Source: Gemmatimonadota bacterium
GTDB taxonomy: Bacteria > Latescibacterota > UBA2968 > UBA8231
Length of the DNA stretch: 11,079 bases
Assembly (NCBI GenBank): GCA_002712305.1
Contig: PATE01000076.1
Span: 17,740-28,818 of the forward strand
Direction of reading: 5' to 3'
Positions 2,419 through 11,079 of the stretch are shown one piece after another. The stretch's first letter is position 1. Every line of letters begins with the position of its first letter. The translations under genes were made by a program, and so were the position numbers. The notes beneath the pieces were generated by a model that worked only from the letters and a program-made list of their open reading frames with translations, had not been told where the DNA came from and did no database searches.

Positions 2419-3234
2419 TCAGTCCCTGGGTTTGTACAGGTCAGACCCCTTGTCTTCTCGGCGGTAGTGCGGCTGTGAGATGACGGCCCTCTGATCGTCG
2501 GTGAGCTCATCGAGCCAGGGAGGCGGTGTCCAGGTGCCCATCACGCCTTCAGCGGTCACCCCGTTGTTGTAACGCATGATGACCGAGCGGCGCTGGTGGG
2601 TCGCCCTCCACGGCAGGGTGCCATGCATCAGGCACTCGACGAACAGAATGGCGTCTCCAGCCTTCGCGGGAATCTGCGCAAAACGACTCTGCGCAGCCTC
2701 GTAGAGGCGAATGTCGTCGGGGCAGGGGAAGTTGGCGCGGTGACTGCCTGGCAGACACGCGAAACCACCATCTTCGGGGCCCACATCCGTGAGTTGCACG
2801 GCCATGTTTGTCATGCCCGAATACATACGACCATTTCGATAGAGGTAACCGCGAGAGCGGTCGAAGGGTTCGCCGCCCTCGTGGAACCAGAAACCCTCGG
2901 CGCCCTCGTCCATCGTGATGATCCCTAACCCCTCCAGCCGAAAACCCGTACCGAGCATTTCCTCCAGGTAAGGGGTCAGACGCGGGTGTACCATCATCTG
3001 CCGGAAGGGGTCACAATGGGGTTTGTCCCAGGTGAGCATCCCACCGAGGTCACCCCGTCCCGTGGTGCCCTTCAGCGTGTCCGAAGCATGGGCCAGGTCA
3101 TTTGGCCGGATGGTGATCTCATCTGCGTGGGCATCGATGGCTTCATTGGCCGCAGCCACCTCTTCTGACGTCAGGGCTTGCTCGATGACGACGTAGCCGT
3201 GCACGTCCATGAGATACTTCTCGCCATCTGTCAC
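2419..3234 (-). CDS. PhyH-family protein with His-x-Gly in place of His-x-Asp
   Basis: A 271-residue phytanoyl-CoA dioxygenase-like protein. Recognisable parts are the N-terminal G-Y-V-V-I-E-Q-A-L helix-strand start (13-21), the core E-D-G-G-F-A-C-L-P-G-S-H-R (154-166), A-G-D-A-I-L-F (192-198), the distal H204 (C-L-M-H-G-T) and R215/R216 in the 2-oxoglutarate position. The first iron ligand region reads F-W-F-H118-E-G120-G-E, so the carboxylate of the usual H-x-D is replaced by glycine. The GTG start is chosen over the ATG at codon 9 because a near-perfect AAGGAGG lies 6 bases upstream. It is the last gene of the - strand cluster, 13 bp after the UxuA-like gene. It resembles the PhyH protein at 4662-5531 more than the + strand one. 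It could be a hydroxylase using another ligand, a halogenase-like enzyme, or a non-catalytic binder. Confidence 0.85.
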   Translation of the reverse strand: MTDGEKYLMDVHGYVVIEQALTSEEVAAANEAIDAHADEITIRPNDLAHASDTLKGTTGRGDLGGMLTWDKPHCDPFRQMMVHPRLTPYLEEMLGTGFRLEGLGIITMDEGAEGFWFHEGGEPFDRSRGYLYRNGRMYSGMTNMAVQLTDVGPEDGGFACLPGSHRANFPCPDDIRLYEAAQSRFAQIPAKAGDAILFVECLMHGTLPWRATHQRRSVIMRYNNGVTAEGVMGTWTPPPWLDELTDDQRAVISQPHYRREDKGSDLYKPRD

Positions 3235-4661: not shown

Positions 4662-5531
4662 CTACACGGCGTCGACGAGATTGCCTTCTACATGTACAGG
4701 ACGAAACAGGGTCTGGCGTTTGGCGGGCATGGCGGCGAGCAGATCAGGATGGGGCTGCCACTTGTGCCACTTGCTGTTGACGTAGTTGTACCGGGTGAAA
4801 ATGGCGATGCGGTCGCGCTGGGCACTCGCCCAAGGTGCGGTCGAATGTGTCGTGCCCTCACAGAAGATGAGAAGTGAACCGGCGGGGCACGAATAGGTTG
4901 TCCACAGGGGTGACTCGGGATCCTGTACGGGCGGCAGGAAGGCGCCCTTGTGACTGCCATTCACCAGCAGCGTGCCACCACCCCCGTGTTCGACCTCGTT
5001 CAACTCCCACACGACGCAGGTCAGGCCACTGCGGGCCTTGCCGGGGGCGCAGCGATAGTGGTGGGAGTCGCCGGGCATGCGCCAGAGTCCGTTGCCATTG
5101 TGCGGGCCGAACGAGCCTTCGCCTTCGGAGCGGACGCACAGAGAGGTAGACTCCATGCGAAATCCGTAGCAGTCCTGGCTGGTCAAGTCTGGATTGGCGA
5201 GAAACTCATTCATGAAACCGACGATGAAGGGATGATCTGCCAGCTTCTCAAGGGGACCGGCCACGGGCGATCTCTGCGACTCAGGGAGTGATTCGGGATC
5301 GCTGTGCAGTTGCTCGCAGTAGGCGCGCATCTGCCTCACATCACTCTCATCCAGCAGGCCTGGAATCAGCAGCCAACCCTGCGTGTCGAAGAGATACTTC
5401 TGCTCAGGTGTCGGGTCGATGACATCTACGCCGTCGGCATTGGTCCGTGGCAGGTCCATGTTCTCCACGTCCACATACTCGAGCCGGCTCTGCGAGAACA
5501 GCAGAGGTTGCGATGAGGATTGGGGCGTCAC
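4662..5531 (-). CDS. PhyH-family protein with His-x-Gly active-site variant
   Basis: A 289-residue PhyH-like protein with an extra ~45-residue N-terminal extension before the domain start (T-P-E-Q-K-Y-L-F-D-T-Q-G-W-L-L-I-P-G, 41-58). Core elements: F-G-P-H144-N-G146-N-G, H-G-G-G-G-T-L-L-V-N-G-S-H-K (182-195), A-G-S-L-L-I-F (217-223), distal H229 (T-T-H-S-T-A-P-W) and R239/R241. As in the PhyH protein at 2419-3234, the aspartate of H-x-D is a glycine. The H-to-H spacing (85) nearly matches that protein (86) and differs from the canonical one at 742-1476 (72), which suggests the two - strand proteins are related. The GTG start is supported by AGGAG nine bases upstream; that site overlaps the TAG stop of the NIPSNAP gene. 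A shorter start at Met25 is possible. The substrate is unknown. Confidence 0.84.
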   Translation of the reverse strand: MTPQSSSQPLLFSQSRLEYVDVENMDLPRTNADGVDVIDPTPEQKYLFDTQGWLLIPGLLDESDVRQMRAYCEQLHSDPESLPESQRSPVAGPLEKLADHPFIVGFMNEFLANPDLTSQDCYGFRMESTSLCVRSEGEGSFGPHNGNGLWRMPGDSHHYRCAPGKARSGLTCVVWELNEVEHGGGGTLLVNGSHKGAFLPPVQDPESPLWTTYSCPAGSLLIFCEGTTHSTAPWASAQRDRIAIFTRYNYVNSKWHKWQPHPDLLAAMPAKRQTLFRPVHVEGNLVDAV

Positions 5532-7032: not shown

Positions 7033-8451
7033 TCAGACAGATGTCTCAGCACGCAACCGTCCTTTCTCATCCTGCGCTTCGTGCCACGTATCTAGCTCGG
7101 CACGCAGGGCCTCAATGGTCTGATGGCGGGCCGGCTCGTCGATGAGATTTCGTTGTTCGAGGGGGTCGGCATCCAGGTTGTAGAGCTCGTACACGACATG
7201 GCCATCGACATTTCCGCGCACGAGTTTGTCTGACTCCCGCACGATGAAGGATTGATTGCCCTTCTTCCACACAGACCGATTGTCCCAGTCGGACACTTGA
7301 CCCGAGACCAGTTTCGTCAGATCTCGTGATTCGACGTCATCCGGTGGGGCCACGCCTGCTGTGGAGAGGAAGGTCGAGAATAGGTCGATGTTGCTCACGT
7401 TCTGATCGCATCGACGACCACCGGCCGGAGCCCGCGGATCATGCACGATCAAAGGCACGTGACAGGAGGCTTCGTAGGGCAGTCCCTTGTAGAAGGCCCG
7501 GAACTGACCGCCGAATTCTCCGTGATCGGCGCTGAAGACGACGAGTGTATCCTCCCACAGTCCCTCCTCGCGAAGGGCGGTCAGCAATCGACCGACACCA
7601 TCGTCGATCATGGCCACATAGCCATAGTAGGCGGACAGAAGCCGACGATACGTGCCTTCGTCCCAACCCAACCGATCGCGTCGATTGAGCCAGTCCATCT
7701 GAGGTGAACTGAGAAACAGGGGCTTGTCCTCGACAGAGTAGTAAAAATCGTCGGGCAAAGGGATCTCATCGGCGGGGTAGAGATCATCCCAGGGGGGCGG
7801 ACACAGATAGGGCTGGTGCGGACCGAAAATGGAGCAGTTGAGGAAGAAAGGTTCGGCTGCGGGTCGTTCGTGTCGCAGATACTGAACCGATTCGCGAACC
7901 GACCAATTCACCTCGTGGTGCTCGAGGTCGAGGAACCCGCTGCCGAGCATGAATCGTTCCTCGTCGGTGTGCTGGCAGGCTTCATCGTCGGTGAATCGCT
8001 GGACGGCAGCGGCCGGATCGTGCTGGAAAGCGGTCTCCTGCAGATACCGGATGTAGGCGGAGTCCGTCGCTTCTTCTGCGCTGTAGTTCGTGTACGGCGC
8101 ATCATGCCGCAGCAGGTGCCGGAAACCGAAGGCGCGGTCCATCGGCTTCAGATGGAGTTTGCCCACCAGAGCCGTGTCATAGCCTGCATCAGTCAGATAC
8201 TCAGGCAACACCTTGCGGTCATGTGGATACAGGACGGTTTGATTGCCGCCCATGCCGTGCGTATCGGCGTAGTATCCGGTGAACAAGGAGGCCCGAATCG
8301 GTGCGCAAGCCATGGTCGGGCACCACGCATTGGAGAACAGTGTCGACTCTGCGGCGAGGGCATCGAGATTCGGTGTCTGCACGACCGGATGGCCGAGCAT
8401 GCTCAGGCAGTCGAAGCGGAATTGATCGGTGAGAATGAAGAGGATGTTCAT
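7033..8451 (-). CDS. Sulfatase (formylglycine-dependent, type I)
   Basis: A 472-residue alkaline-phosphatase-superfamily sulfatase (PF00884) that hydrolyses sulfate esters. The maturation motif is C49-A-P-I-R53 (C-x-P-x-R), so Cys49 should be converted to formylglycine by a maturase encoded elsewhere; the usual Ser/Ala at the fourth position is Ile. Other active-site positions: D9 in I-L-T-D-Q, K98 and H100 in V-G-K-L-H, H212 in G-P-H-Q-P-Y, D309-H310 in S-A-D-H-G-E and K322. The protein starts directly with the first strand (M-N-I-L-F-I-L-T-D) with no signal peptide, so it acts in the cytoplasm, unlike most sulfatases of polysaccharide-degrading bacteria. The ATG overlaps the stop of the glycoside-hydrolase-like gene as ATGA, meaning the two are co-translated. 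The likely substrate is a small sulfated sugar or a choline-sulfate-like compound; the exact ester is unknown. Confidence 0.94.
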   Translation of the reverse strand: MNILFILTDQFRFDCLSMLGHPVVQTPNLDALAAESTLFSNAWCPTMACAPIRASLFTGYYADTHGMGGNQTVLYPHDRKVLPEYLTDAGYDTALVGKLHLKPMDRAFGFRHLLRHDAPYTNYSAEEATDSAYIRYLQETAFQHDPAAAVQRFTDDEACQHTDEERFMLGSGFLDLEHHEVNWSVRESVQYLRHERPAAEPFFLNCSIFGPHQPYLCPPPWDDLYPADEIPLPDDFYYSVEDKPLFLSSPQMDWLNRRDRLGWDEGTYRRLLSAYYGYVAMIDDGVGRLLTALREEGLWEDTLVVFSADHGEFGGQFRAFYKGLPYEASCHVPLIVHDPRAPAGGRRCDQNVSNIDLFSTFLSTAGVAPPDDVESRDLTKLVSGQVSDWDNRSVWKKGNQSFIVRESDKLVRGNVDGHVVYELYNLDADPLEQRNLIDEPARHQTIEALRAELDTWHEAQDEKGRLRAETSV

Positions 8452-9902
8452 GAGCTCTTTTGAGTCGGAAACACGCCGTACTCGATTATGAGCTCAACAT
8501 CGTCTACACGGATCTCGCCCTCGAAATCATCAGGTCGCGAGTGCAGGACGAATTGGACCTTGTTCGTCCCCTTCGTTGGGCGAAGGCCATCGAGATCGAA
8601 TTCGAGCCATTGTCCCGTATAGGCATCGTGCCAGCGTGGTGTGCGGCGGCAGGTTTCCGTGGAGAGGGATGTTCCATTGAGGCTGACCTCAAACCGATCC
8701 TGAGACACGAGTTCGGCCACGTTGATCTTGAGTATCATCCGCCGAATGCGGTCGTTTTCTGGATCGTCGTTGATCGAAAACTCGACTTCGTAACTCTTCG
8801 CCGGGTCTGCCGCCGGAATCGAAACGGGCAACTCGGCACCGTACACGTAGCTCTCCTCGTTCTCGGGTCGCTGCCTTAGGAAGTAGTGCTTGTCGCCTTC
8901 TCGCGTGAGATCAGGATCCCCCATGAAGGAGAGGGTGCGCCGTTCGCCATCTTCCAGGGGCCAGTCCATGAACCACGTGTACAGGCCATCTACATCGGCC
9001 TCCCAGAAGTTCGACGCTGCGGCACGCATCATCTGCGGTGTCGCGTGTTCGACTTTCGTGTTGGGCCGTCGTCCATCCAGGTAGTAGGGCTGCAGCATGC
9101 CATAGACGGAGATGTCGTTGGCATGGGCCGCCTTCACGATCCAGTCGATGGGCATCTGTGCATCGAGGACAAAACAGGAATAGGCCATGGGGACGACAAA
9201 GTCGACGTATCCCTTGGCCAACCACGTCTCCACGTCGAGACCTGCCCGCTGATTCAACTCCACCGTCGGATAAACGCGCGCGCCGAGAAGGCCGGGTTGT
9301 CCAGGACGTCCCCTCACTGTGGCCGAGGCGTCGCGGACGAAATCCGTCATCAGCGAGGCGTGCTCGGGGGCCTCATCCGGGTTCAGGCAGAAGGGGCATC
9401 CGCCGGGGGAGGCGGCGAAATCAAGCTCGATACCCTCCGCATCGTAACGGGTCGCCAGTTCTTCGATGATGGCGTGCTGATGATCTCTGACCTCGGTATG
9501 TACGAATCCGCGGCCCCCTTCGGCCACGTTGTGCTCAGGATTCATTCCACCATAGGCACCCAGACGAAGACTGGAGAAAAACTCCATCCCCTTTTCGTGC
9601 GCGCGATCGATGAGGACCTGCAGTGGGTCGAGATCCTTGGCGATCAGACTCTGCATGTTCTCCCAGCAGCGCCATTCGTAGGCATTCTGAAAAGGTTTGC
9701 GGTCCGAGCCCCATTCCAATCCGACACGAGAAGGGTAGAACAACCCATCGGCGCGAGACACGCCATAGATGAAGGTGTCGATCCCTGTGCCGGCGACCTC
9801 GTCGACGGGAATCCACGCATCCTCCATCCGCATGGGCGGTTCGAAGACGAACAGGTAGTAGTGGCGCGCGTCGTTGAAGTAGATGGTGCGTCGCTTTCTC
9901 AT
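8448..9902 (-). CDS. Glycoside-hydrolase-like TIM-barrel protein with C-terminal beta domain
   Basis: A 484-residue two-part protein. Residues 1-330 look like a putative glycosidase (beta/alpha)8 barrel of the uncharacterised GH-like kind: D-A-E-G-I-E-L-D-F (154-162) and Y-V-D-F-V-V-P-M-A-Y (232-241) are strand ends where catalytic acids and sugar-contacting residues usually sit, and W-F-M-D-W (310-314) is a probable eighth strand. E159 and D161 are candidate catalytic residues. Residues 385-476 form a beta-rich domain ending in V-D-D-V-E-L-I-I-E-Y, similar to the truncated protein at 10653-10931 and probably a carbohydrate-binding or packing module. Residues 165-173 hold a C-P-F-C pair. There is no signal peptide. 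The ATG overlaps the creatininase-family stop (ATGA, 9899-9902), and its own stop overlaps the sulfatase start. I infer hydrolysis of a glycoside; no biochemical family can be named with certainty. Confidence 0.8.
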   Translation of the reverse strand: MRKRRTIYFNDARHYYLFVFEPPMRMEDAWIPVDEVAGTGIDTFIYGVSRADGLFYPSRVGLEWGSDRKPFQNAYEWRCWENMQSLIAKDLDPLQVLIDRAHEKGMEFFSSLRLGAYGGMNPEHNVAEGGRGFVHTEVRDHQHAIIEELATRYDAEGIELDFAASPGGCPFCLNPDEAPEHASLMTDFVRDASATVRGRPGQPGLLGARVYPTVELNQRAGLDVETWLAKGYVDFVVPMAYSCFVLDAQMPIDWIVKAAHANDISVYGMLQPYYLDGRRPNTKVEHATPQMMRAAASNFWEADVDGLYTWFMDWPLEDGERRTLSFMGDPDLTREGDKHYFLRQRPENEESYVYGAELPVSIPAADPAKSYEVEFSINDDPENDRIRRMILKINVAELVSQDRFEVSLNGTSLSTETCRRTPRWHDAYTGQWLEFDLDGLRPTKGTNKVQFVLHSRPDDFEGEIRVDDVELIIEYGVFPTQKSS

Positions 9903-10642
9903 AACCGTCCGTTCCGGATGTCGCTGACCACTTCTACGAGGCCATCGACAACGGCCTCCAGCATCTGTTCGCCCTTCTCTGCCGTGCCAAAACTCGGGTC
10001 TCCATGGACGCCGACCCTGGTGCGTTCATCCATGCGTTGGAACTGAGCCACGAGTCCGCCATGACGCGATTCGGGGTGAATCCCATCCAGGCCCGGTCGA
10101 TCGGCCTTCACCAGATCTGGACGGATGACGAGCATCATGGACGTTTCCATCTCTCCCGCATGTCCTGAGCCCAGCGGGCCTGCCTCCTTGATCTCGTCCA
10201 GCTCCTGTCCCGCAATGCGCCAGTGGGAAGCGCCGAATACCCTCGTATCGTCGTGGGTCTCCTTGATCTTCTGCAGGGCCACGGCCATATCCGCCTCGTT
10301 GCCGCCATGCCCATTCAGGATCAACACTTGGGAGAATCCGGCCGAAATCAGACAACCCACCGTCTCGTAGATCACATTGATATGTGTCTCGGATGTGGCG
10401 GTGACACTGCCGCCAAAGCGTATGTGATGGTAGGAATATCCGAGCCACTGCGTGGGTAGGCAGACAACATCGTCGGGGATTCTGCCCTCCAGGCGACGGA
10501 CAATCTCGTCGGTCTCCATCGTATCCGTGAGAAAGGGCAGATGGGGACCGTGCTGTTCGAAGGAGGCGATGGGGTAGACGGCAACCAGGGCGTCCTTGTC
10601 CAGTTGTTTCACTTCGGGCCACGTCATTTCGCCGAGTTTCAT
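9899..10642 (-). CDS. Creatininase-family metal-dependent amidohydrolase
   Basis: A 247-residue protein of the creatininase family (PF02633), binuclear-metal enzymes that open cyclic amides or cleave formamides; members include creatininase, a FAPy deformylase and MftE. Metal-site motifs are clear: S-F-E29-Q-H31-G-P-H-L-P (27-36), D40 (L-T-D-T), N-G-H112-G-G-N (110-115) and S-G-H-A-G-E164-M-E-T-S (159-168). Length is normal for the family. The frame runs back to 10669, but AGGAG at 10648-10652 places the start at the ATG at 10642, giving the usual M-K-L-G-E-M-T-W opening. The stop overlaps the start of the glycoside-hydrolase-like gene (ATGA). Ten bases separate it from the upstream frame. 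In this context it may hydrolyse an amide or lactam-type sugar derivative; this is inference. Confidence 0.93.
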   Translation of the reverse strand: MKLGEMTWPEVKQLDKDALVAVYPIASFEQHGPHLPFLTDTMETDEIVRRLEGRIPDDVVCLPTQWLGYSYHHIRFGGSVTATSETHINVIYETVGCLISAGFSQVLILNGHGGNEADMAVALQKIKETHDDTRVFGASHWRIAGQELDEIKEAGPLGSGHAGEMETSMMLVIRPDLVKADRPGLDGIHPESRHGGLVAQFQRMDERTRVGVHGDPSFGTAEKGEQMLEAVVDGLVEVVSDIRNGRL

Positions 10643-10647
10643 GGACT

Positions 10648-10652
10648 CTCCT
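10648..10652 (-). promoter_or_regulatory. Ribosome binding site fixing the creatininase-family start at 10642
   Basis: AGGAG on the - strand begins one base after the TAA stop (10653-10655) of the upstream frame and lies five bases before the ATG at 10642. It excludes the longer start at 10669, which would overlap the upstream gene. Confidence 0.75.
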
Positions 10653-11078
10653 TTAGTAGCGAACGACAAGTTCGACGTCTGTGAGGGTGATCGGTGCGAG
10701 CAGCTGCGGGTGACGTTCGATCAACACGACGTGCACTCCATGCCTTCCCGGTTCGATCTCTCGCGATGTCAGATCCCACTCAAGCCATGCAGCACTGCTG
10801 ACGGTAGAGATTTCGCGCCAACGAGGCTGGGGCTGAAAGGCGCCACCGGGTGGTGATGGATTCTCCAATCGGCACGGAACAACCTGCGCCGAATCGAGGA
10901 CTTCACCGTCCCAGCAGACACGCACCACGTCCTGCAGCAGCATCTGGTTGAGTTCGCTGATACGGCGTACAATGCGGAAAAAAGCCCGCATCATCTTTTC
11001 AACCGCGGTTTTACTGTCATCACCATAGCCCATCATGGCGGCCACATCTGGCTGATAATCGAACAATAAGCGGTTTTC
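10653..11078 (-). CDS. Chimeric open frame: GlnD fragment joined to the C-terminal beta domain of a GH-like protein
   Basis: The frame is open to the right edge, so its true 5' end is not visible; the first possible start (TTG, 11064-11066) is inside homologous sequence. Two unrelated parts are joined in frame at about 10932. The first 49 visible codons match the PII uridylyltransferase GlnD. From Q-D-V-V-R-V onward (10653-10934) it is a beta-rich domain with W-L-E-W-D-L and [10 protein letters not shown], closely parallel to residues 401-475 of the glycoside-hydrolase-like protein at 8448-9902 (W-L-E-F-D-L and V-D-D-V-E-L-I-I-E-Y). The beta-domain part ends ten bases before the creatininase-family gene and fits the operon as the 3' end of another GH-like or binding protein. 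The fusion has no plausible joint function; see the GlnD entry. Confidence 0.75.
10932..11078 (-). pseudogene. glnD: GlnD (PII uridylyltransferase) internal fragment
   Basis: About 49 codons of clear GlnD sequence: N-R-L-L-F-D (codons 2-7), A-V-E-K-M-M (25-30) and [12 protein letters not shown] (38-49). These correspond to the region just after the nucleotidyltransferase domain, roughly a third of the way into the ~850-900-residue enzyme that uridylylates PII in nitrogen control. In real GlnD the sequence continues L-F-D/Q-E-A-I-L; here it switches after L-L-Q to an unrelated beta domain. The segment resembles gammaproteobacterial GlnD. By hand count it is about 49% G+C with codons such as TTA, AAA and GTA, unlike its ~60% G+C neighbours. 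It is a broken piece that happens to be in frame, either an assembly chimera at a contig end or a recombination remnant. Confidence 0.8.
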
Positions 11079-11079
11079 A

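Follow-up and report, generated by a model that had tools for sequence, protein, structure and literature searches.

Does the reading frame at the right-hand edge of this locus encode a real protein, in which a piece of GlnD is joined to an unrelated beta domain, or has the join been made in the assembly? The window (the whole stretch of 11,079 nucleotides analyzed here) covers positions 17740–28818 of contig C97 of genome G000; on the right it extends to the last base of this 28,818-base contig. A sequence-only reading of the window considered an assembly chimera most likely and, failing that, an insertion of foreign DNA into the operon head. Here, we argue from sequence comparisons that the fusion is almost certainly an assembly artefact, a chimeric contig end corresponding to no real gene or fusion protein. 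The features discussed are collected in Table 1.

Table 1. Coordinates of the features at and near the right edge of the window (positions are those of the window).
Feature	Position	Strand	Basis or remark
GHL10-like protein, native	8448–9902	-	C-terminus resembles the beta domain of the broken gene
Creatininase-family gene, native neighbour	9899–10669	-	Pfam PF02633, E 4.5e-66; same order in G001
GlnD/beta-domain fusion frame	10653–11078	-	141 codons open; enters from the window edge
Native 3′ end of a glycosyl-hydrolase-like gene of GHL10 type, comprising the stop codon and the C-terminal beta domain	10653–10931	-	67% over 100 amino acids to the G001 protein
Probable false junction	10931/10932	-	10932 is the last Alteromonas base, 10931 the first native base
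Foreign fragment, internal segment of an Alteromonas glnD (PF08335 positions 93–141)	10932–11078	-	49 codons, reaching the contig edge; 147/147 bases; Pfam and NCBIfam
Final contig base	11079	-	T where A. alba has C; agrees with three related Alteromonadaceae

The two parts of the frame differ sharply in what they resemble. Residues 1–48 match the Pfam family GlnD_UR_UTase (PF08335; E 3.3e-10) and the NCBIfam GlnD model PRK05007 (E 4.1e-17), while for the 93 residues that follow, neither Pfam nor NCBIfam gives any match at E values up to 1. The frame therefore does join a GlnD fragment to an unrelated beta domain, as had been read from the letters, and the switch, previously placed near 10932, can be positioned between two adjacent bases. 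The reported drop in G+C content to about 49% is borne out by counting (49.3% in 10932–11079 versus 59.5% in 10653–10931, the latter also being the value of the whole window). The frame carries no full-length GlnD, with nucleotidyltransferase, HD and ACT domains; only the part of PF08335 listed in Table 1 is present.

The source of the GlnD part can be traced closely. In a scan of ~85,000 bacterial and archaeal genomes, Alteromonadaceae rank top for this part, with 100% amino-acid identity (49/49 residues) to Alteromonas alba strain 190 and to the Alteromonadaceae metagenome-assembled genome (MAG) UBA2620. At the DNA level, all 147 bases are the same as in the glnD gene of both (NZ_PVNP01000147.1 in A. 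alba). Identity to A. alba then falls at a single base, from 100% to 19% across the next 112 bases past the junction; the Alteromonas gene carries on as GlnD beyond this point, whereas the window sequence turns into GHL10. A 680-base query against the A. alba and UBA2620 genomes aligns over the same 147 bases only, the remaining matches being at chance level. The description of the GlnD part as gammaproteobacterial thus holds through its identity to Alteromonas, but third-position G+C does not reveal it, being alike in the GlnD and native parts (0.612 and 0.613).

Other sources of the tail were considered and rejected. Over 95 bases, Escherichia coli glnD reaches only 76% identity, which excludes that species alone. 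The genome's own GlnD fares no better as a source: the sole other PF08335 match in the genome is weak and partial, lies on contig C96, and looks by eye like a GlnE remnant. On that contig (L004:1053-1875), a short aminotransferase-like frame is immediately followed by this remnant, and the pair may be a decayed gene or a further assembly fault. Among related genomes, the tail is found in none of the 60 compared; distant GlnD matches (36–37%) occur in only four of them, within frames of 891–922 amino acids. No copy of the junction was found in viral contigs.

On its native side, the frame belongs to a recognizable gene. Matches to the query occur in 33 of 60 related genomes, the best being in the same-genus genome G001, where 67% identity over 100 residues starts exactly at the junction. 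The two halves of the frame point apart in this way, one to Alteromonadaceae and the other to a genome of the same genus. The G001 match is the C-terminus of an intact 582-amino-acid protein with a GHL10 domain (L009:55-1803, contig C44), in which the GHL10 domain and the C-terminal beta domain share one frame. Downstream, the G001 gene is followed by a creatininase gene and then by a second GHL10-like gene, the order seen in the window, with 77% DNA identity over 2.3 kb. In one detail this departs from the earlier reading: the broken domain belongs to a GHL10-type gene of its own, which lies ahead of the creatininase gene and is a paralogue of the 8448–9902 protein. The likeness to the C-terminus of that protein, on which the earlier reading had remarked, is genuine yet modest (35% over 57 amino acids, E 9e-8, for this single pair). 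The window holds only the C-terminal domain of the GHL10 protein because the contig end cuts the gene.

These comparisons bear on the idea of a genuine beta-domain protein in which the GlnD segment functions as the N-terminal domain. The reading frame is indeed open through the junction, as such a protein would need. However, this architecture is found in none of the 60 relatives, the GlnD contribution is only a 49-residue slice from inside a domain, and the relatives that match best carry the beta domain at the end of frames some 510–950 amino acids long. Both the intact G001 gene and the 5′ part of this gene elsewhere in the assembly (see below) contradict a genuine fusion protein, and we regard it as hardly credible.

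To find the missing 5′ half of the native gene, the N-terminal part of the 582-amino-acid G001 protein served as a query against the window's own genome. This yields a 23-residue match (87%) that terminates at the very last base of another contig, C123, which stops ~30 codons into a GHL10-type gene. The last 62 matched bases of C123 are the start of that gene (85% to G001), and the 2.3 kb upstream of it are 75% identical to the corresponding upstream DNA in G001 with order kept; the genes there are sulfatase-like and TIM-barrel, xylose-isomerase-like (both named by eye). Because C123 ends in the first codons of the gene and its upstream genes match those of G001, the native GHL10 gene begins at the C123 end and finishes in C97, making the two contigs likely neighbours ~1.2 kb apart. 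The gene that is whole in G001 is here split between two contig ends, with its middle (~1.2 kb, roughly 400 codons by G001 coordinates) left out of the assembly. A direct overlap of C123 and C97 was looked for and none was found, in keeping with the absence of the gene's middle. Among 40 contigs inspected, the shortest measures 11.9 kb, which suggests that short contigs were left unbinned. The region bearing the first codons of the gene that ends at window 10653–10931 is C123:14500-17025 (L237).

The same genome contains two full-length paralogues of the broken gene, on C43 and C90 (80% and 61%, respectively, to the G001 N-terminal part), besides more distant ones; altogether there are more than ten GHL10-like copies. 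The C-terminal domain of the C43 paralogue is only about half identical to that of the window gene, and 23 identical bases are shared with C90. Such similar paralogues may have contributed to the break in the assembly at this gene.

Could the tail instead reflect a very recent, true transfer of Alteromonas DNA, inserted in the GHL10 gene and replacing part of it? The deposited sequence is contiguous and in frame over the junction, and the contig end would hide the extent of any foreign DNA. However, the transfer would have to be recent enough to leave 147 bases unchanged, would have to be accompanied by a deletion that removed ~1.2 kb (about 400 codons) from the host gene, from the C123 end to 10931, and would require the contig to break off after no more than 148 bases of the insert. 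Moreover, the remainder of the 4.1 kb A. alba glnD locus was searched for in the genome and is absent. A recent transfer is therefore very improbable, and the proposal that foreign DNA marks the head of this operon finds no support, the operon itself showing no sign of an insertion. A chimeric contig end, by contrast, is strongly supported because the foreign segment is terminal, is near-identical to its source up to a single-base boundary, and has displaced a continuation that is present at the end of C123.

How the join arose, in library preparation or in assembly, is a matter of inference. Genuine C97 sequence would stop within the 3′ part of the GHL10-type gene, at 10931, a site that was presumably poorly covered or repeated. 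There, a 148-base tail from the interior of glnD of a marine Alteromonas close to A. alba would have been attached; the likeliest causes are a chimeric read, a chimeric library fragment, and wrong extension or gap filling. The sequence-only reading suggested that a short stretch shared by both sides could have driven misassembly or recombination. The motif CTGCTGCAG lies at 10932–10940 and occurs once in the window (0.12 copies expected); it is Alteromonas sequence, and G001 has CTACCAGAG at that place. The stretch common to both sides of the junction probably amounts to only a few bases, and no repeat of k-mer length able to explain a de Bruijn misjoin was found there. A k-mer-driven misjoin is a poor fit because the common stretch is too short, and a chimeric read or fragment entering a poorly covered gap appears the more likely route. 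The open frame through the junction is an accident, the chance of which is one in three.

If Alteromonas DNA had entered the assembly more widely, other contig ends might carry it too. Eighty ends of 40 contigs were ranked by G+C content, and the three with a marked drop (on C106, C17 and C100) were compared with Alteromonas. None of the three matches A. alba or UBA2620 significantly, which rejects systematic contamination at these ends and makes the tail appear to be a single event rather than a systematic fault. The lack of Alteromonas sequence at these ends, as well as that of a k-mer-length repeat at the junction, counts against the artefact reading. Among the other contig ends, those of C18 and C98 have 95 identical bases in common, probably a join left unmade by the assembler, and the start of C105 resembles 16S rRNA sequence by eye.

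Chimeric contigs are a known class of artefact in MAGs, addressed by tools such as GUNC (PMC8201837). As in the known cases, segments of two lineages would be combined in one contig; the difference is that the foreign piece here is only 148 bases long, terminal, and confined to one partial gene. Tools that work on whole genes would probably overlook such a tail. The importance of the case is one of quality control only: a plausible in-frame fusion could be taken up by databases, whether as a novel domain architecture or as an instance of horizontal transfer. Cutting C97 back to 10931 would eliminate the tail, and the end of C123 would supply the correct 5′ neighbour.

Further from the junction, the window contains three phytanoyl-CoA-dioxygenase-like frames within 5 kb (742–1476, 2419–3234 and 4662–5531). 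Pfam PhyH is confirmed for the latter two, the first being judged by eye. UxuA-like, aldo/keto reductase and sulfatase genes lie near these frames, and the ensemble resembles a catabolic gene cluster.
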